Notes under the pieces: model-generated
Seen by the model: only the letters and a program-made list of their open reading frames with translations
Databases searched by the model: none
What the model was told of the DNA's origin: nothing
In this document: piece by piece, positions 13,886 through 55,644 of the stretch
Layout: each line of letters opens with the position of its first letter
Position numbering within the stretch: position 1 is the stretch's first letter
Program-made: the position numbers and the translations under genes
From: Flavobacteriales bacterium
Lineage (GTDB): Bacteria > Bacteroidota > Bacteroidia > UBA10329
Direction of reading: 5' to 3'
Assembly (NCBI GenBank): GCA_021739625.1
Contig: JAIPBJ010000001.1
Coordinates: 1 to 64,000 of the forward strand
Length of the DNA: 64,000 bases

Positions 13886-14713
13886 TCACTTCATCAGGCG
13901 GATGACCACTCCCTCATCCGTGCGGAGGAAATAATGGCCTTCGCGCTTCGAAGAAAGGTCGATCAGGTTGGTCGATCTCAATGAAAGCACCTGCTGACCA
14001 AGGATGTCATAAACTCCACCTGTCACGTTGGTCGAAAGTTGAAAACGCCCCGTAGCACTTGGGTTGGGGTATGCCGTGAGGGTAGAGATGATGTTGTCAT
14101 CTATGCCCACTGCCACACATTCAGAATTGACTGCGCTCGGTGTGGCGAAAATCTCGATTCCGTTTACAGTCACACCTGTCGAGGTAGTGGATGCGATCCA
14201 GCTTTCAGGCAGTGTTCCATCAGAGGTTGGGTCGCAGCGTTCCAGAGACGCTCCACCGCCATCTGCACTGACAGGCCAAGCGACAGTGTCATCGAAATAC
14301 ACGGTATCGACCAGATTTCCCTGTGCATCACGGATGCTCAGTCCTTCACCGTTGTTGGAAAGGGCTCCGGTAGTCCAGGAGGTGGCATAACCGAGATTGA
14401 AGGTGTTCACAAGCGCGGTGTCGTTTATGCCGATCACACTGTGCTCTCCTGCCGGCAGGATGGGTGGATTACCCTCTATCATGGTGGGAATCACAAAATC
14501 GATGCCCGTGAATGTGAAGCCTCCAAGATTCACACCTGCACTTCCATAGTTGTATATCTCGATGTACTCCAGCGAGTCGTTTCCCGCCTCAGGTGGATTG
14601 TACATGATCTCGGTGATGGCAATGGTCGCATTTTGAGCGGCCAACTGTGCTGTCAGCGAAACTGCCACCGCAATAAGGGACAGTGAACGCAATGCCGGGT
14701 AATGTTTTTTCAT
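13886..14713 (-). CDS. Lamin-tail-domain exoprotein with T9SS type A sorting domain
   Basis: IAITEIMYNPPEAGNDSLEYIEIYNYGSAGVNLGGF (LTD); C-term TLTAYPNPSATGRFQLS...REGHYFLRTDEGVVIRLMK. Confidence 0.87.
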   Translation of the reverse strand: MKKHYPALRSLSLIAVAVSLTAQLAAQNATIAITEIMYNPPEAGNDSLEYIEIYNYGSAGVNLGGFTFTGIDFVIPTMIEGNPPILPAGEHSVIGINDTALVNTFNLGYATSWTTGALSNNGEGLSIRDAQGNLVDTVYFDDTVAWPVSADGGGASLERCDPTSDGTLPESWIASTTSTGVTVNGIEIFATPSAVNSECVAVGIDDNIISTLTAYPNPSATGRFQLSTNVTGGVYDILGQQVLSLRSTNLIDLSSKREGHYFLRTDEGVVIRLMK

Positions 14714-14766: not shown

Positions 14767-16461
14767 CTAAGAAATCTGTGATTCGGATTTCAAGTTCATC
14801 GTTTCCGGGCCAAGAATGGCCGCACTGTTCAGCGTCTGTTCATTGATCTTGAAATTCAACCAATAGTCCAATGCCGACCGGTATCCGTCTTTCCGGTTGG
14901 AGGCGATGAATTCGGCCCATAGCAATGCGATGGTCAGCTCTGCGATGTAGAATGCCATATCGCGGGCGCTTGCTTCCTTTTCCATTGGAGTTGCCAATTT
15001 GCCGAGGAAGGTCATCAGCGTGGTGTATCTGCCCTGAATGATGCGCCATTGCTCGGGCGTGGCACCATGCTGTTCTTGGAGTCGGGGTTCTGCAAAGTCG
15101 CGGAATCCCTCCAGACCGTTTTCCTTTGCCATGGCCCGGAGCATGTCCAACGACAGCACGTTGGTCGTGCCCTCCCAGATGCTGAGGGTCTGGGCATCGC
15201 GCAGCATCACAGGGATTCCGCTGTCTTCCAGATAGCCCAGTCCACCGAACATCTCAATGTGCTCCGATGCTGAGGCAATGGCCTGCTTGGCCGTGTAGAG
15301 CTTCCCCACCGGGGTAAGCAGGCGCAAAAGGGCACTTTCCGGTGCTGTGGCCACGTTGCATTCCTCTTTGCCCAACAGACGGGTGAGGAACAGGGCAAGC
15401 AATGCGTTGCTCTGGTAGGCAATCTCCAGCTCGCGCAACGTCCTCCGGTAGAGCACGTGCTCGCCCACAGGCTTTCCGAATGCCGATCGCTCTTTCCCGT
15501 ATGCCGCGCTCAGCGCGAATGCCCTGCGCATGTATGACACCGCACTCACCGTGTTGTAGATGCGGGTGATGTTGAACAGCGTTGCTATTGTGGGCACTCC
15601 TCGGCCTTTTTGGCCTACCATCCGTGCCTTCGACCCCAGAAGCTTCAACTGCGCGGTGGGCAGGGCCCTTGTTCCGAGCTTGTCCTTCAAGGCCTCCACT
15701 TCTATGTGGTTGAGGCTTCCATCATCATTGCGTATGGGAAGGTGGAACAGCGAGAGCGGTGCGCGTCCGCCATTCTCCGGCTGGTCGGTGGATGCCAGTG
15801 TGAAGGCCATGTTGGCCGTGATGGCCGATGTGAACCATTTGTGGCCGTGCAGCGCAAAATGCTCCCCCGCAGGAACTGCGATGGTCATGGAGCGCGACAC
15901 GTCCGAGCCTCCCGTGCGTTCGGTCATCCACTGGCCACTGGTGAGGAATTCGGCCGGGTTGCGTGAGGTGAGGCCGGGATAGGCCCCCTTGCGAAGGAAA
16001 TCATCGCCATGAAGTTCAATCAGCCGCGCAGCACCGTCAGTCATCGCCAACGGAGACGTGTAGATGGCGGAGGAGGCCGTGTAGAGATAGAGTGTGGCGA
16101 ACTGATAGAGCCGCGAATGCGCTCCATACTTCCGTTCATAGCCTATGGCGACCAGACCCTCTTCGGCTGCCACGCGTTCGAGACCGAGCCATCCCTGCGA
16201 GACTTTTATCTCATCCACCCGCTTGCCCCACGCATCGAACTGGGTGAGTTGCGGAGGATTCGTTTCTGCTTCGCGCGCCCAAGCGATGCAGTCTGTGGTG
16301 ACCAATTTTCCGAACCTTTCAAGGTCGGGGGCTATTTCTTTGAACACATCTTCAGGAAGATTTGCTGCGAGATAATCTCTTAGAAATTGGTCGTCCAAGA
16401 ACTCGTTGCCGAGCTGCGGTGCTTTTTGGAGAAAATCCGAGTGGGGAGTAGCGTTTGACAT
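14767..16461 (-). CDS. Acyl-CoA dehydrogenase family protein
   Basis: TSGQWMTERTGGSDVSRS, GHKWFTSAITANMAFTLAST, EHIEMFGGLGYLEDSGIPVMLRDAQTLSIWEGTTNVLSLD. Confidence 0.9.
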   Translation of the reverse strand: MSNATPHSDFLQKAPQLGNEFLDDQFLRDYLAANLPEDVFKEIAPDLERFGKLVTTDCIAWAREAETNPPQLTQFDAWGKRVDEIKVSQGWLGLERVAAEEGLVAIGYERKYGAHSRLYQFATLYLYTASSAIYTSPLAMTDGAARLIELHGDDFLRKGAYPGLTSRNPAEFLTSGQWMTERTGGSDVSRSMTIAVPAGEHFALHGHKWFTSAITANMAFTLASTDQPENGGRAPLSLFHLPIRNDDGSLNHIEVEALKDKLGTRALPTAQLKLLGSKARMVGQKGRGVPTIATLFNITRIYNTVSAVSYMRRAFALSAAYGKERSAFGKPVGEHVLYRRTLRELEIAYQSNALLALFLTRLLGKEECNVATAPESALLRLLTPVGKLYTAKQAIASASEHIEMFGGLGYLEDSGIPVMLRDAQTLSIWEGTTNVLSLDMLRAMAKENGLEGFRDFAEPRLQEQHGATPEQWRIIQGRYTTLMTFLGKLATPMEKEASARDMAFYIAELTIALLWAEFIASNRKDGYRSALDYWLNFKINEQTLNSAAILGPETMNLKSESQIS

Positions 16462-19398: not shown

Positions 19399-19526
19399 GT
19401 AGAGACGCAGTTGACCGCGTCTCAACCGGAAAACAGAAACCCCGCTGCGCGAGATGCGTGGCGGGGTTTTCTGTTGGTAGAGACGCTGATTCCATTAGGT
19501 ACAGACGTGATTGATCGCGTCTCTAC
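19399..19526. repeat. Composite palindromic repeat, copy F1 (hairpin plus GTAGAGACG...CGTCTCTAC module)
   Basis: CGGAAAACAGAAACCCCGCTGCGCGAGATGCGTGGCGGGG...GGTAGAGACG...TGATTGATCGCGTCTCTAC, preceded by GTAGAGACGCAGTTGACCGCGTCTCAAC; strong AACAGAAACCCCGC/GCGGGGTTTTCTGTT stem. Confidence 0.85.
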
Positions 19527-20230
19527 CCTGCGACCGGGGCGTTCTTCCCGTCCATGACCTTGGTCTTGGCCCTATAGCGCTGATACTGTGCCCTCCGTTC
19601 GGCATCTTTCGCCCAGACCACACTGGCGCAGATGCTCAGGGTGGACATGCGTTCCCAGACCATGTTGAACAACGCCACGCGGTCGTGCCGCTTCACCTTT
19701 CTGTCAGCCTTGGCGGCCTCCAGCAACTTATTGCGCTCATAGAGCTCGGTGACCAGCGCGTCCAACTGGTCTATGGCCTCCTGCCTGTAGCCCTTGTCCA
19801 ACAGCTGTGGCTTGAAGTCCGCTGACTGCGCGGTGGCATGCGCCAGTTCGAGCATCTCGGCAAGCAACAGCGTGTTGGGGCGTGCTTCCGGCCATCGGTC
19901 CTGCCCGAAGGCGCGCTGCCGCGACAGATCTGTGGGCCATGCCAATGTGGCGTAGCCCGCCAGGGCCTGCAGTGCGGCATAGCCCCTTTCCATGGCCGCA
20001 CGGAGGTCGCTACTCAGCACTCCTATATCGAGCAGCAGACTGAGGTCGGAGGGGAAGGCATCTGCGGCCTTGGTCTCCGCCTCGAAGGCCGAGGCCCATG
20101 CGGAGTCCATCCATGGGAATTTCACTGTGAAGTCGGCCAGCTCTGCGTTCAGGCAGGAGGAGAACACCTCTGCACGCTCCAACATCACATTGTCGGGCAT
20201 CGTGTAGGCCCTTGCTGCTGTCTGTGCCAT
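19523..20230 (-). CDS. Hypothetical protein, 235 aa, predicted helical
   Basis: Long Ala/Leu/Glu-rich ORF with no recognised family motif. Confidence 0.6.
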   Translation of the reverse strand: MAQTAARAYTMPDNVMLERAEVFSSCLNAELADFTVKFPWMDSAWASAFEAETKAADAFPSDLSLLLDIGVLSSDLRAAMERGYAALQALAGYATLAWPTDLSRQRAFGQDRWPEARPNTLLLAEMLELAHATAQSADFKPQLLDKGYRQEAIDQLDALVTELYERNKLLEAAKADRKVKRHDRVALFNMVWERMSTLSICASVVWAKDAERRAQYQRYRAKTKVMDGKNAPVAG

Positions 20231-20278
20231 TGTGGGGTAAGGGAATGCGTCAATCTGTTCACAAAGCTAATTATTCGT

Positions 20279-20686
20279 TTCATATAATGCTTGTATGCAT
20301 TCAAATGTATGATTAAAACATTCATACTCAAGAATGCACTCATCATATACTTGATCTATTTATTCAAACGAAGAACTAAAATTTTCAGATAAATATGAAA
20401 ATCATTATGATGATGAATCTGTGAATTCAAATGAATAAATAAATCATTCAAATGATGAATGAAACATGTTGAACTTATCATGTGAATGGATAAAAATATC
20501 AAATGAATAAACAAAAGAGATATATGAAAAGGTAAATTGATCATCTGAATAATTAACAAGTTCATTTGAATAAATGGTATCATCATAGGAATAGATATAT
20601 TGATCATAAGAATGAATATATTTATCAATAGAAACAATGAAATTTCCATTTGAATGAAAAGATTAATTATCTTAATGAAAAATTTC
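20279..20686. repeat. Array D: AT-rich degenerate 21-bp tandem repeat, about 19 units in two phase blocks
   Basis: TTCAnnTGAAT/ATCATnTGAAT-type units at 20279, 300, 321, 342, 363, 384, 405, 426, 447, then a 9-nt phase shift and 20477, 498, 519, 540, 561, 582, 603, 624, 645, 666. The 97-aa minus ORF here shows a 7-residue period. Confidence 0.85.
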
Positions 20687-20801
20687 TTGGAAGTGGGCCA
20701 AAGCCTTCGATTCCATTTCCCGAACTCGGCTCTGTTTCGGTAAAACGTGGGAAACTCGCCTCAAGCTGGTGTATGCACGAAGCGTGAATCACTCCCAAGT
20801 G

Positions 20802-20880
20802 CGGAAAAAGAAAGCCCCGCTGTGCGGGATGCGTGGCGGGGGCTGTTGCTGGTAGAACCGTGATGCATCGCGGCTCTACA
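20802..20880. repeat. Composite palindromic repeat, copy F2
   Basis: CGGAAAAAGAAAGCCCCGCTGTGCGGGATGCGTGGCGGGG...GGTAGAACCGTGATGCATCGCGGCTCTAC, matching F1 at 19427-19526 in order and orientation. Confidence 0.8.
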
Positions 20881-20887
20881 TAGCGCA

Positions 20888-21520
20888 TCACCCCAACATC
20901 ACGAACATGCCGGTAAAGACCAGTTCGTCCTCACCAGCGAATTTCACGCGGATGTGGTAGAGGAAGGTGCCTGTGCCGATCCACTGCCCGTCATCTCTTC
21001 CGTTCCATCCATCCTCCAGACTGTGGGTCTCGAAAAGCAGGGTTCCGTCAAGGGAGCGCACCTGCCAGTGGAGAAATTCAAGCTCCGGGCCGAGAAGGCC
21101 AGGGTTGATCACGGGTTTCCACCCAGTAGAATAGGAATACCAACGGTCAAAGGCTGTCGGCACCATCACGAATCGATAGCAGGTGTAGAAATGTGCGGTG
21201 CGAATGATAGTGTCGCCTTGCCAATGGATCAGGCATCGCACCGAACCGACCCCTTGCGATGTCGGTAAATGGAGCGCAGTATCAGTTCCCAGCGGCTCCC
21301 ACTCACCACCACCGACCGGCCTTGACCACTCTACAGAATCGACCCAGAAAGGGGCTTGCAGCTCGTAATTGTCGAACTCGTTCTCAAGGGCCTGGCATAC
21401 CTCCACCACTTCGGCATCCAACAGAATGGTCTGCTGTCCGGGAATAGAAGGCACCGATGGCGGCTCCTTGAGGCAGCCCGTCATTGCAAAACAGAACATG
21501 GTGACCAGAAGTAGCCTCAT
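20888..21520 (-). CDS. Putative lipoprotein with gliding-motility/T9SS type B-like C-terminus
   Basis: MRLLLVTMFCFAMTGC lipobox-like; C-term GWNGRDDGQWIGTGTFLYHIRVKFAGEDELVFTGMFVMLG resembles GWDGSYKGAQVESGVYVYRIDWTDINGDEGQRTGQVILVR of the 55.6-59.3 kb adhesin. Confidence 0.65.
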   Translation of the reverse strand: MRLLLVTMFCFAMTGCLKEPPSVPSIPGQQTILLDAEVVEVCQALENEFDNYELQAPFWVDSVEWSRPVGGGEWEPLGTDTALHLPTSQGVGSVRCLIHWQGDTIIRTAHFYTCYRFVMVPTAFDRWYSYSTGWKPVINPGLLGPELEFLHWQVRSLDGTLLFETHSLEDGWNGRDDGQWIGTGTFLYHIRVKFAGEDELVFTGMFVMLG

Positions 21521-32188: not shown

Positions 32189-32209
32189 ATTGGGGGTTGG
32201 AAAGAAGAA

Positions 32210-32302
32210 GTTCCACCGATGGTAGCGGAAGGTTCCGCTGTCATAGCGAAAGTTCCACCGATGGTGGCGGAAGGTTCCGCTGTCGTAGCGGAAGTTCCAC
32301 GG
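32210..32302 (-). repeat. Array B: 42-bp (2x21) tandem repeat, about 2.2 units
   Basis: GTTCCACCGATGGTRGCGGAA / GGTTCCGCTGTCRTAGCGRAA at 32210, 32252, 32294. Confidence 0.9.
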
Positions 32303-32500: not shown

Positions 32501-33634
32501 TTAATCATGGGAACCTTTGAAAATACCGTCTTCAATGTCTTCCTTTTTGCCGGTTGCGCCTCTTAGATTTGCATGTTTGAAATCTGCTCCTGTCCAAATC
32601 GCTCCTGTGAGGTCTGTATCCATCAGGTATGCACTTCTGAGATTTGCTTCCGTGAAATTGGCTCCTTCGACATTAGCATGGCACATGTTGGAATTTTGGA
32701 GGTTTGCTCTTTGAAATTTTGCTCTGCGGAGGTCTGCTCTGTGAAGGTCTGCTCTCTCGAGATCTGCTCCTTGAAAGGTTGCTCCTTGGAGGTTTGCTCC
32801 TTCGAAGCTTACATATCTTAGGTTTGCCCCTTCAAGGTTTTGTCTTTCGATGTTTACTCGTTTGAGAGTTGCTCCATTGAGGTGTGCCTCTCTTAGGTCT
32901 GTACCTTTAAGGTTTGCCATATTGAGGTTCGCACACACGAAGCTTCCGCCTTCGAGGTTTGCGCCTTCGAGGTTTGCACCTTCGAGGTTTGCACCTTCGA
33001 GGTTTGCATTTTTGAGATTTGCGCCTTTTAGGTTTGCATTTTTGAGATTCGCTCCTTTGAGGTTCGCATCCCTCAGATTTGCATTTTCGAGATTTGCATC
33101 CCTGAGATTTGCATTTTCAAGATTTGTCCCTTGAAGGGTTGCCCGTTCAAGATTTGCATTTCTGAGAGTTGATGCCTTGAGTTCTGCCCGACTTAGGTCA
33201 ACGCTTTTGAGAAGTGTCCCGTTCAGCATTGCACTATTGAGATTTGTGTCCCTGAGAATTGACCGTTCAAGATTTGCCTCGTTCAATTCAGCAAATTCAA
33301 GATTCGCTCCCCCAAGGTCAGCATCACAAAGCCTCGCCCCACATAAATCAGCTCGATATAGGTTTGCTTTTGAGAGATCAACTCGGTTGAGCCATGCTTT
33401 AGTGAGAGTTGCAAAACTGAGGTCTGTACCAATGAGCTTGGCTCCCCTGAGATCTGCCTCTATAAGGTTTGCGGAACCTAAATTTAGACCAGAAAGATTT
33501 GCTTGTTGTAAGTCTTTTTTCATCAAATCCACCTTTGCTTTCCCGCCAGTGCTATTTATTAATTCAACTACCAGCTCCCTTGTTATGCTCTCCATTTTGA
33601 TCAACTTGAATTTGATGTAACCCCCGTCCCCCAC
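32501..33634 (-). CDS. Pentapeptide-repeat protein
   Basis: 377 aa of A(N/D)LXX repeats ([50 protein letters not shown]...). Confidence 0.95.
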   Translation of the reverse strand: [377 protein letters not shown]

Positions 33635-48200: not shown

Positions 48201-48229
48201 TTGTTCTGCTCACAATAGTTCTACCTTTG
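48201..48229 (+). promoter_or_regulatory. Bacteroidota-type promoter (TTG - 18 nt - TACCTTTG) for SRP RNA
   Basis: TTG 48201-48203, TACCTTTG 48222-48229, 4 nt before the RNA 5' end. Confidence 0.7.
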
Positions 48230-48233
48230 CAGC

Positions 48234-48331
48234 GGGGTAAGTCCTGTGCGACCAGCTCCCATCTAATCCCCCAGAGCAGGAATGCAGCAAGGGTCGGTGG
48301 TTGTAGCGGTGCGACACAGTCAGCTTACCCC
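48234..48331 (+). ncRNA. ffs: Bacterial small signal recognition particle RNA (4.5S-type)
   Basis: GGGGTAAGTCCTGTGCGACCAGCTCCCATCTAATCCCCCAGAGCAGGAATGCAGCAAGGGTCGGTGGTTGTAGCGGTGCGACACAGTCAGCTTACCCC: complementary ends, apical CAGAGCAGGAATGCAGCAAGGG with GGAA loop, then T-tract. Confidence 0.9.
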
Positions 48332-48440
48332 ATTTTTTGTGCCCTGAAGTGAACCATGGGGCCAGAACCAGAATCCTCATTGACCCTCCAGATTTGAGAC
48401 GATCACTCAAAATTGCAGGGTCAGTCCTTTCGTAGTTCGG

Positions 48441-51887: not shown

Positions 51888-54380
51888 ATGACACGCAAGG
51901 CCCTTATCCTGCTTGTGACGGTGCTGTCAATTGGCACGGGTCACGATGCGTTCGCACAGCGCACCCGCATCCTCGGCTCGGTGGCCAATGCGGTCACGGG
52001 CCGGCCGCTGCCTTTCGCCAATGTGAGTTTCAGCAGCAGCAGCTTGGGCACTGTCACCGATTCGCTCGGCAACTTTGTGCTGGAGACCAACCGCAGGTTC
52101 GATTCCCTGCGGGTGTCATCCATCGGCTATCGCACCGAGGTGGTGCCCGTGGTGCATGGCGTCACCGAGGAGATCGACTTCCTGCTCCAACCATTGTTCT
52201 ATGAGTTGAGCGAGGTTATCGTGCTGCCGGGCGAGAACCCCGCCTTCCGGATCCTACGCAAGGTCATCGCCAACAAGCCCATCAATACCCCCGAACGGCT
52301 CGATGCCTACGAGTATGGCGTGTATCACCGCGTGCGCTTCGACCTCAACAACTTCACTGAGAAGGCGAAAAAGAACTTCATCCTCCGCCCGTTCGACTAC
52401 ATCTGGGACCATGCCGACACCACCGAAGCTGGCGTGGCCTATCTGCCTATCCTCATGACCGAGACCAGCCGCGAGGTCTTTTACCGCAAGGACCCGCAGG
52501 CCCGCATGGAGGTCATCCGTGGCCGCAGGGACTACAAGTTCTTCCGCGCACCACGCATCATGGAGTTCGTGCAGGACATGTACATCGACCCCAACATCTA
52601 CGACAACCATGTGGTCATCCTCGACAAGAGTTTCCCCAGTCCCATCAACGATTTCTACAGACGCAACTACCGCTTTGTGCTGATGGACAGCCTCGTGCAG
52701 GTCGATGGCCGCTCGTGCTATCACATCGCATTCCGCCCAAAGGGCAAGAGCGATGTGGCCTTCACGGGCGGAATGTTCATTGACGACAGCACATTCGCGG
52801 TGGTGCAGGTGGATGTCGAGTTCAGCATCGAGGCCAACATCAACTTCGTGCGCAATTATTGGATCCGGCAGAACTATTCACTTGTTGAGGGAAAACAGTG
52901 GTTCCTCACACGCAGTCAGGTCTTGGGCGATTTCACCGTGGTGGAGAACTCCAAAGAGATGACGGGCTTCTTCGGGCGCAAGACCACCGAGCTGCGCGAC
53001 ATCAGGATGAACCGGCCCCGCGAGGACGGATTCTATTCCACCCTCGACCCCGTGGTGGAGCAGGACAGCGCCTACACCCGTACCGATGGTTTCTGGGAAA
53101 TGGAGCGGCCCGACACCCTTTCGCAGAAGGAGCAGGAACTCATCGGCATGGTCGAGCGCCTCAACAGCGACCCGAAGTGGAAGCGCACCGAGGCCATCAT
53201 ACGTCTTGTGGCGGAAGGCTATCTTGAGCTTGGCCCCATCGACCTCGGCAACGTGTTCACCTTCTACAGTTGGAACACCGTGGAGGGCCACCGCGCAAAG
53301 CTCGGATTCCGCACCAACAGGCGGTTCAGCGAGACCGTGCAACTGAGCGGCCATGCGGCCTACGGCTTCGGTGACCAACGATGGAAAGGAGGCGGCACCA
53401 TCGACTTCTTCTTTCCCGAAAAACTGAACAGACGCATGGAATTCGGGGCCAGCTACCGCAACGACCTGATGCAGCAGGGCAGGGGAGAGGGCCAGCTTCC
53501 GCTCGACCATGTGCTCACCTCGTTCGTGCGCATCAGCGGGGCATTCAAACGGATGATGGCCGAGCAGACCGAGGCCCATGCCGAGCGGCAGTGGTTCACG
53601 GGGTTCAGCACGCGGGTCGGGATGTTCCGTGAACGATACAGCCCGCTGGAGCGCGATTTCAGTGTGATGGCTGCTGACGGCAGCACTGTGCCCGCAGCGC
53701 ATTTCACCGCATCGGGTCTGCGCGTGGGCCTGCGTTTCGGTTGGGGGCAGAAACTGTTGCCTGCGGCCTACAACGCTGTGGACAGCGGGCTTTTCGCCCA
53801 GCGGTTGCCAGTGGTGGCGTTTGAGGTGGCGGCAGGGTTCCGTGGGCTTTATGGCGGGCAGTTCGACTACCAGCACCTGCGGCTCAAAGTGCAGCACCGC
53901 CAGCGCGCCAACAAGCTCGGCTATCTGCAGATACTGGCCGAGGGCGGCATCATCAACGGCACCGTGCCCTTCCCGCTCTTGCACGCCCCCGCAGCCAACC
54001 CGCTCGTGTTCAATGACGACCGTTCGTTCAACCTCATGAACTATATGGAGTTCGCTGCCGACCGCTATGTGTCGCTGCAGGTGGAGCACCACTTCGAGGG
54101 GTTCTTCTTCAACAGGATACCCGGTGTGCGGCTGCTCAAGCTACGCGAGTTCGTCTTTGCCAAGGCGTTCTACGGCACGCTGACAGACCAGAATGCCAAT
54201 GGCCCGTTCGTGCTGGCCGATGGCATCGACCCGATGACACATCCGTACGTGGAGGTCGGTTTCGGCATAGAGAACATCCTCAAGATCGCCCGCATCGACT
54301 TCACTTGGCGGCTCACCCACCTCGATAGGCCGAATGTGCTGCCTTTCGTGGTGAAGCCGAGTTTTTACTTTCGGTTCTGA
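51888..54380 (+). CDS. DUF5686 / carboxypeptidase-like regulatory domain outer-membrane protein
   Basis: Signal peptide; RILGSVANAVTGRPLPFANVSFSSSSLGTVTDSLGNFVLE; RILRKVIANKPINTPERLDAYEYGVYHRV; long C-terminal barrel ending ...FVVKPSFYFRF. Confidence 0.87.
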   Translation: MTRKALILLVTVLSIGTGHDAFAQRTRILGSVANAVTGRPLPFANVSFSSSSLGTVTDSLGNFVLETNRRFDSLRVSSIGYRTEVVPVVHGVTEEIDFLLQPLFYELSEVIVLPGENPAFRILRKVIANKPINTPERLDAYEYGVYHRVRFDLNNFTEKAKKNFILRPFDYIWDHADTTEAGVAYLPILMTETSREVFYRKDPQARMEVIRGRRDYKFFRAPRIMEFVQDMYIDPNIYDNHVVILDKSFPSPINDFYRRNYRFVLMDSLVQVDGRSCYHIAFRPKGKSDVAFTGGMFIDDSTFAVVQVDVEFSIEANINFVRNYWIRQNYSLVEGKQWFLTRSQVLGDFTVVENSKEMTGFFGRKTTELRDIRMNRPREDGFYSTLDPVVEQDSAYTRTDGFWEMERPDTLSQKEQELIGMVERLNSDPKWKRTEAIIRLVAEGYLELGPIDLGNVFTFYSWNTVEGHRAKLGFRTNRRFSETVQLSGHAAYGFGDQRWKGGGTIDFFFPEKLNRRMEFGASYRNDLMQQGRGEGQLPLDHVLTSFVRISGAFKRMMAEQTEAHAERQWFTGFSTRVGMFRERYSPLERDFSVMAADGSTVPAAHFTASGLRVGLRFGWGQKLLPAAYNAVDSGLFAQRLPVVAFEVAAGFRGLYGGQFDYQHLRLKVQHRQRANKLGYLQILAEGGIINGTVPFPLLHAPAANPLVFNDDRSFNLMNYMEFAADRYVSLQVEHHFEGFFFNRIPGVRLLKLREFVFAKAFYGTLTDQNANGPFVLADGIDPMTHPYVEVGFGIENILKIARIDFTWRLTHLDRPNVLPFVVKPSFYFRF

Positions 54381-54390
54381 ACTTCATGGT

Positions 54391-54842
54391 CCTGTCGGAA
54401 GGAAGGCTGACACAGCGGAGCAACTGCTTTGCCCCGATGGGAGAACTCCGATCACAGCGGAGCAACTGCTTTGCCCCGATGGGAGAACTCCGATCACAAC
54501 GGAGCAACTGCTTTGCCACGATGGGAGAACTCCGATCACAGCGGAGCAACTGCTTTGCCCCGATGGGAGAACTCCGATCACAGCGGAGCAACTGCTTTGC
54601 CCCGATGGGAGAACTCCGATCACAACGGAGCAACTGCTTTGCCCCGATGGGAGAACTCCGATCACAACGGAGCAACTGCTTTGCCCCGATGGGAGAACTC
54701 CGATCGCAACGGAGCAACTGTTTTGCCCCGATGGGAGAACTCCGAACGCAACGGAGCAACTGCTTTGCCCCGATGGGAGAACTCCGATCACAACGGAGCA
54801 ACTGCTTTGCCCTGTCGGAGGCCCGTCCGACACAGCGGAGCA
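54391..54842 (+). repeat. Array C: 42-bp tandem repeat, 10 units plus edge variants
   Basis: ACARCGGAGCAACTGCTTTGCCCCGATGGGAGAACTCCGATC units every 42 bp from 54412 to 54832; stop-free in several frames, generating the 176/207/155/169-aa ORF calls. Confidence 0.97.
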
Positions 54843-55005
54843 TATTTTTTTAGGTTCGCCCGCATCTGTTGCACATTGCAATTCAGTGACAGTGTAGCGT
54901 TCTTCGGGCTGAAACCGAGTGTTTACTTCAAGTGCTGACGCTTGCTCGGCCGGTGAGAAAGGAAGGGGCCGTGGCGTGAATGCGCATCCATTACCTTCGC
55001 CCGCC

Positions 55006-55644
55006 ATGCACGTGATTCTGCCCTCGGCCTATTTTCCGCCCGTCAGCTATTTCGCCTATCTGCTCTCGCCTGCCGTGACCAAGGTGACCATGGAGGCGAA
55101 GGAGCATTTCGTGAAACAGAGCATCCGCAGCCGTTGCATAGTGGCCGATCCGCATGGGAAGCTCACGCTCTTCGTACCGAAGGAGAAGACGGGGAACCGC
55201 TCGGTGATGGACGAGGTGCGCACCGTGGAGGAGGCCCATTGGCGCAGGACGCATTGGCGCAGCATTGCAGATTCCTATCGCAGTTCGCCCTATTTCGAGT
55301 ATTATGAGGACGACTTCGAACCGTTCTTCAGGGAGCACGAGGACCGCATCCTCAACATCGGTCAGCGAAGCATTGCCAAGGTCTGCGAACTCCTTCGGAT
55401 TCCTTTGCAGGTAGAATTGACCACCGGTTTCTGGGAAGGTGATGATGCACTCGACCTGCGAAGTGCGTGGAACAACAAGGACTATCGGGAGCGCCCGCCC
55501 GTGGTGCATTTCCCGGAATACACGCAAGTGTTCTCCGACCGCAACGGGTTTCTGCCCGACCTGAGCATCCTCGATCTCCTGTTCTGCAACGGCCCTAAAA
55601 GTCTGGACTACCTCAAAGCACTGGAATTGCGGGGCATGGAATGA
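55006..55644 (+). CDS. WbqC-like family protein
   Basis: MHVILPSAYFPPVSYFAYLLSPAVTKVTMEAKEHFVKQSIRSRCIVADPHGKLTLFVP; C-term FSDRNGFLPDLSILDLLFCNGPKSLDYL. Confidence 0.85.
   Translation: MHVILPSAYFPPVSYFAYLLSPAVTKVTMEAKEHFVKQSIRSRCIVADPHGKLTLFVPKEKTGNRSVMDEVRTVEEAHWRRTHWRSIADSYRSSPYFEYYEDDFEPFFREHEDRILNIGQRSIAKVCELLRIPLQVELTTGFWEGDDALDLRSAWNNKDYRERPPVVHFPEYTQVFSDRNGFLPDLSILDLLFCNGPKSLDYLKALELRGME

Follow-up and report, generated by a model that had tools for sequence, protein, structure and literature searches.

Arrays of fixed 21-bp spacing and mostly locus-private sequence upstream of two uncharacterised protein families suggest a control region of undescribed type

What purpose might be served by a 400-bp AT-rich island with a strict 21-bp rhythm, lying within otherwise GC-rich bacterial DNA? 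The island (here called D) occupies positions 20278-20684 of a 64,000-nt stretch of a Flavobacteriales genome (contig JAIPBJ010000001.1; hereafter the window). A sequence-only reading of the locus had described a strongly AT-rich segment in which a palindromic core recurs about 19 times in 21-bp phase, with a single 9-nt shift near 20468-20477, and these descriptive points hold. D contains 22-23% GC (0.23 for 20262-20690) against about 55% for the window. The palindromic core ATTCAnnTGAAT occurs 19 times: nine copies start at 13 mod 21 (20278 to 20446) and the remaining ten at 1 mod 21 (20476 to 20665), the step from 20446 to 20476 being 30 bp, or 21+9. Identity at lag 21 is 0.51, compared with 0.33 ± 0.02 in 500 dinucleotide shuffles (z 8), and it stays at 0.49, 0.54, 0.46 and 0.46 at lags 42, 63, 84 and 105; none of the 500 shuffles attains the observed values, and the top identity over lags 5-89 in 300 shuffles was 0.43. 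The original reading had named the lack of a 21-bp autocorrelation peak as its refutation, and the lag-21 peak does exceed that of composition-matched shuffles. The period does not have a heptanucleotide origin, identity at lag 7 being under the shuffle level.

The 9-nt jump turns out to be mainly a change in the orientation of the unit, since the two halves of D match better when one is reversed (reverse-complement correlation 0.78 vs 0.54 direct). D is thus best described as a pair of opposed half-arrays built of 21-bp units: a left half (20278-20465) with nine cores, the consensus ...ATTCAnATGA... and 49% mean pairwise identity, and a right half (20466-20684) with ten cores in the opposite orientation, ...TATCATnTGAATAAATA..., and 58% mean pairwise identity. 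The junction, with its phase jump and orientation flip, falls at 20446-20487. D is not a CRISPR array, because its units abut and there are no spacers between constant repeats, and no Rfam family matched at D.

D lies directly upstream of a minus-strand gene (19523-20230) for a 235-aa uncharacterised protein, a member of what we call family 1. Between D and the start codon is TAGCTTTG (20262-20269, minus strand), which matches TAnnTTTG, the Bacteroidota -7 promoter motif; some 32 bp separate the start codon from this promoter-like motif, and some 50 bp from D. Beyond D, a terminator-like hairpin with a T-rich tail follows the minus-strand gene at 20888-21520 (hairpin at 20815-20829, minus strand; one found, 0.4 expected), and this predicted element is consistent with a place for D in the family-1 promoter region. 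The neighbours of D are sucC, the family-1 gene and hypothetical genes with no Pfam match; no replication initiator gene adjoins it, which argues against replication-origin iterons.

D is one of a class. The window holds three further non-coding arrays with a 42-bp period (2 × 21) and unrelated sequence: at 210-488, between convergent genes and unlike D in sequence; at 32208-32302, where the perfect palindrome CGGAAGGTTCCG occurs twice; and at 54380-54849, where palindromes are spaced by 21 bp and a WbqC-like gene (54919-55644, plus strand) lies downstream. About 20 arrays of period 21 or 42 were found in 505 kb of the same genome (several contigs, window included), about 10 in 416 kb of the congener G008, one in four other congeners (340 kb) together with short pieces of a fifth, and two, both weak, in 1.38 Mb around sucC from 80 named Bacteroidota records. 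Comparison of array against array revealed no motif common to all and few pairs that are alike; among 30 arrays of D's own genome, sequence is common to only two pairs, and when D was searched against its own genome and 58 related ones, only short AT-rich chance matches came back. The 21-bp spacing is thus kept while the sequence is nearly always private to the locus. Arrays lie between genes of every orientation, several of them between convergent genes. In two further Bacteroidia genomes, strong 21-bp arrays stand by ordinary genes at about 20-30 per Mb: G182 (L319-L324) and G081 (L327, L329), and none was found in the 83 kb seen of G378, although a family-1 gene with an array is present in that genome. 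Intergenic tandem arrays of other periods occur in the Bacteroidia G009 (7 and 14; L086-L090) and G047 (11, 17 and 22-24; L076-L085); the period may be characteristic of the lineage.

Many such arrays are associated with two gene families. We called an upstream array when a score of at least 25 was reached at lag 21, 42 or 63 within 900 bp of the gene. By this measure an array stands upstream of 33 of the 45 family-1 members with enough upstream DNA to be testable and of 21 of 28 members of a second family, family 2; for roughly one family member in four no array was detected, and two of the 33 family-1 arrays (L230, L266) consist mostly of heptanucleotide repeat and are weaker evidence. Array-bearing members of both families come from many taxonomic families of the class. 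The background is low: 19 of 347 genes in D's own genome (5.5%), 11 of 279 in G008 (3.9%) and zero among 28 control-family loci of the genus. Within D's own genome, arrays precede 11 of 15 family genes vs 16 of 344 others (Fisher p 5e-11), many of these loci being kin by descent, so that counts are not independent and p-values overstate independence. Downstream of family members, no lag-21 score reaches 25. Family-1 kin have a 21-bp array of differing sequence in the same place (the paralogue on contig C118, the orthologue in G008, and homologues in G003, G011 and contig C58). Across 48 family-linked arrays, the median distance from array end to start codon is 85 bp, and TAnnTTTG lies between the two at eight loci vs 1.7 expected. 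A position at a gene promoter, as expected of an operator array, was accordingly found for both families and not for all arrays. Together these observations suggest that a kind of control region not described before lies upstream of the two gene families. No earlier description of such 21-bp arrays was found in the full-text literature searched, and subscription papers may hold one.

Family 1 is uncharacterised and alpha-helical; profile searches recovered members from 27 of 390 genomes across the class and, within the genus, 14 matches in D's own genome. The window protein has no match in Pfam, NCBIfam or PHROG. Its paralogue L023 matches the NCBIfam model NF052641 (PQLLE) at E 1.3e-6 and 28.3 bits, below the cut-off of 80, and we do not assign family 1 to PQLLE, although the two are similar in length and weakly akin; upstream of L276, which does belong to PQLLE, there is no 21-bp array. 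Family 2, which was first met through array L034, combines an N-terminal, helical-looking part with an Fn3-like tail (a reading of the alignment) and has no match in Pfam, NCBIfam or the PADLOC defence-system models. The families show no detectable homology to each other (hhalign probability 1.7%) and neither resembles a known DNA-binding protein. No sequence or fold relatives were found in the PDB, and the sole structure model (pLDDT 48) is too poor to interpret. Both families are widespread and of no known function, and the arrays flag the DNA upstream of their genes.

The 48 family-linked arrays (11,853 bp) contain 3,592 departures from their own consensus, or about 30% of positions, and a phase tracker found only four phase shifts among them; the tracker is conservative and left D's own 9-nt step unflagged, so that there are at least four. 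Significant dyads (p<0.05) are present in 23 of the 48 arrays vs 2.4 expected, about half being without them. Along the unit, information peaks at the 10.5-bp harmonic (p<0.05 in nine of 48 arrays), as would be expected if one face of the helix were contacted.

Our favoured, though tentative, reading, to which we give a little less than an even chance, is that D acts in cis on the gene at 19523-20230 (minus strand) as a helically phased, operator-like array, and that it belongs to a class of such arrays with mostly locus-private sequences. Each unit would be a site, often a dyad, facing the same side of the helix; a DNA-binding protein would load cooperatively along 10-20 such units, and the bound array would control the promoter immediately downstream. 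The binder might be encoded by the adjacent gene itself, or a regulator might have been co-opted for the task. The linkage to genes and the anatomy of the arrays are observed; that a protein binds, that it does so cooperatively, that it regulates the gene and which protein it is are all inferred. An operator array accounts for why the spacing is fixed, why dyads occur, where the arrays lie and why one unit is occasionally common to several loci. An example of the last is found in G081, where two further arrays of one contig repeat the unit of the family-2 array there; they precede a methyltransferase-like gene and an oxidoreductase-like gene, respectively (names that reflect our reading of the sequences), and such recurrence is expected if one binder has several targets. 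The operator reading does not explain the arrays between convergent genes, a setting in which a promoter would not be expected, or those away from both families. Also counting against it are the lack of resemblance of either protein family to known DNA-binding proteins, the arrays that have no dyads, the family members with no detected array and the lack of a sequence relative of D elsewhere in its genome. There are precedents for the architecture in plasmid iterons and in centromere or operator arrays of the ParR/parC type, in which helically phased sites lie about 20 bp apart and the cooperative binder is often encoded next door. The repeated sites of D are likewise in helical phase, but no Rep or Par gene adjoins D, the locus looks chromosomal, and the sequences vary between loci of one genome. 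A separate observation concerns L028, where a small protein (14338-14682, minus strand) that is helix-turn-helix-like by eye and has no Pfam match is preceded by a 21-bp array (14882-15097); this protein is a candidate array-binding regulator.

A stronger version of the operator reading would have each paralogue of the two unrelated families read its own 21-bp array, with unit sequence and protein specificity diversifying together and the period as the sole universal part. We regard this version as unlikely. If it were true, protein and array would form private pairs akin to matched-pair recognition systems. Conservation of spacing alone also has a practical consequence: regulatory DNA is usually known by its conserved sequence, and motif searches and family-based annotation would miss arrays of this kind.

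The main rival to an operator array is a passive origin, in which lineage-specific slippage or recombination makes 21-bp intergenic duplications and the upstream regions of the two families are simply permissive. It keeps this place because the arrays are patchy between congeners and because most of those in the own-genome sample adjoin neither family. Conservation at orthologous sites fails for two sister arrays (window 54380 and L032 6841), which have no counterpart at 13 congener loci; the sole array at those congener sites (L228) precedes the gene, while in D's own genome the array is at the gene's 3' end. Minisatellites would also account for private sequences, for arrays beside unrelated genes and between convergent ones, and for the tandem arrays of other periods in other genomes, and whole-unit gain or loss is directly visible in the orthologous arrays L232 and L256, which differ by exactly one 21-bp unit. 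What they leave unexplained is a single exact period common to families of the class, the scarcity of phase shifts despite heavy divergence, and placement only upstream at the two families. On balance we consider passive minisatellites somewhat unlikely.

The same pair of orthologous arrays bears on another alternative, namely that the array acts as RNA, transcribed as a leader or a separate transcript that forms a series of hairpins. L232 and L256 carry a mirrored, complementary pair of substitutions around a central inverted repeat; these keep the pairing, and fit both selection on a symmetric site and template-switching inside the inverted repeat. The 48 arrays fold better as RNA than column-permuted versions of themselves (mean z -1.35), with family 2 at -2.35; D itself folds as RNA at z -2.55. 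However, many individual arrays do no better than their controls, the family-1 mean is only -0.69, and several arrays (L314, L255 and L306) show no RNA structure. Moreover, 21 nt corresponds to two turns of B-DNA and not of A-form RNA, and in D the promoter-like motif stands between the array and the gene. We consider an RNA-level element improbable.

Alternatively, the arrays might be spread by a mobile, MITE-like element or as a cassette of array plus family gene. The closest known element that we found is the BrickBuilt MITE of Porphyromonas gingivalis, a known array-type MITE of Bacteroidota with a 23-nt unit, one common sequence and leader and tail ends that form inverted repeats, for which promoter activity has been reported (PMC4596501). 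The arrays described here resemble BrickBuilt in being intergenic and spacer-less, with a period of about two helical turns and many sites per Bacteroidota genome, but differ in their 21-bp period, private sequence and position upstream of two protein families. D itself does not qualify as a BrickBuilt-type MITE, given a period of 21 and not 23, the lack of a relative in its genome and only two similar pairs among 30 arrays; terminal inverted repeats of the BrickBuilt type were not seen by eye at D or at three G081 arrays. Patchy presence between congeners would suit a mobile element, as would the small groups of like arrays within one genome (L031/L057, L271/L274 and the three in G081). Against this, the three related G081 arrays have no obvious common ends in their flanks (by eye), private sequences are unlike the copies of a MITE, and no phage homologue of the family protein was found. 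Mobility thus strikes us as quite improbable. Two cases of similarity deserve separate mention. In D's own genome, L031 832-1102 and L057 711-958 lie at different loci, adjoin neither family and have a common unit (78% over 184 bp). On a 20,536-bp contig of G008 (C14; L053), a short 21-bp array and its flank occur near both ends, at 849-974 and, as the reverse complement, at 19571-19690; either an element with terminal inverted repeats or an artefact of assembly would give this pattern. Outside the phylum, TAACTGA direct repeats of marine Beggiatoaceae are also intergenic and genome-wide and have been proposed to be regulatory (PMC4679880), but they consist of one 7-nt sequence and D has no 7-bp periodicity.

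The sequence-only reading had itself expected intrinsic curvature, a view under which D would be curved DNA or a site for a nucleoid or architectural protein. Its helical phasing stands, 21 bp being two turns of 10.5 bp and strictly kept, but the expected curvature is not supported. The mean bend of D per 105 bp is 53.2 degrees in a dinucleotide wedge model, compared with 52.0 ± 11.7 in shuffles (p 0.44), and 46.5 compared with 39.5 ± 9.2 in an AA-wedge model (p 0.21). Many sister arrays likewise show no excess; the predicted bend does rise above shuffles in some (54380-54849, L031, L057, L064 and L054), but 21-bp tandem repeats sum their bends in phase by construction. In the A/T content of D neither the 10.5-bp nor the 21-bp period has any power, and AT-richness does not define the class because sister arrays with the same period reach 66-70% GC. 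We consider intrinsic curvature or an architectural role very improbable.

Finally, that D encodes a translated heptad-repeat protein is barely credible: the 97-aa open reading frame within it (20356-20649, minus strand) does have a 7-residue period, but every frame of a 21-bp array must, there is no Pfam match, each frame of the left half-array contains at least one stop, and stops break the frames of many arrays, several sister arrays being stopped in most or all frames (e.g. L038). The frame is no gene, and its dismissal as a by-product in the original reading was correct; 21-bp arrays are in general non-coding. The window's one coding long tandem array is of a different kind, with 15-bp repeats at 32501-33634 (minus strand) that give a pentapeptide-repeat-like protein. 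The window also carries a Bacteroidales small SRP RNA at 48228-48334 on the plus strand (Rfam RF04183, 107 bits).
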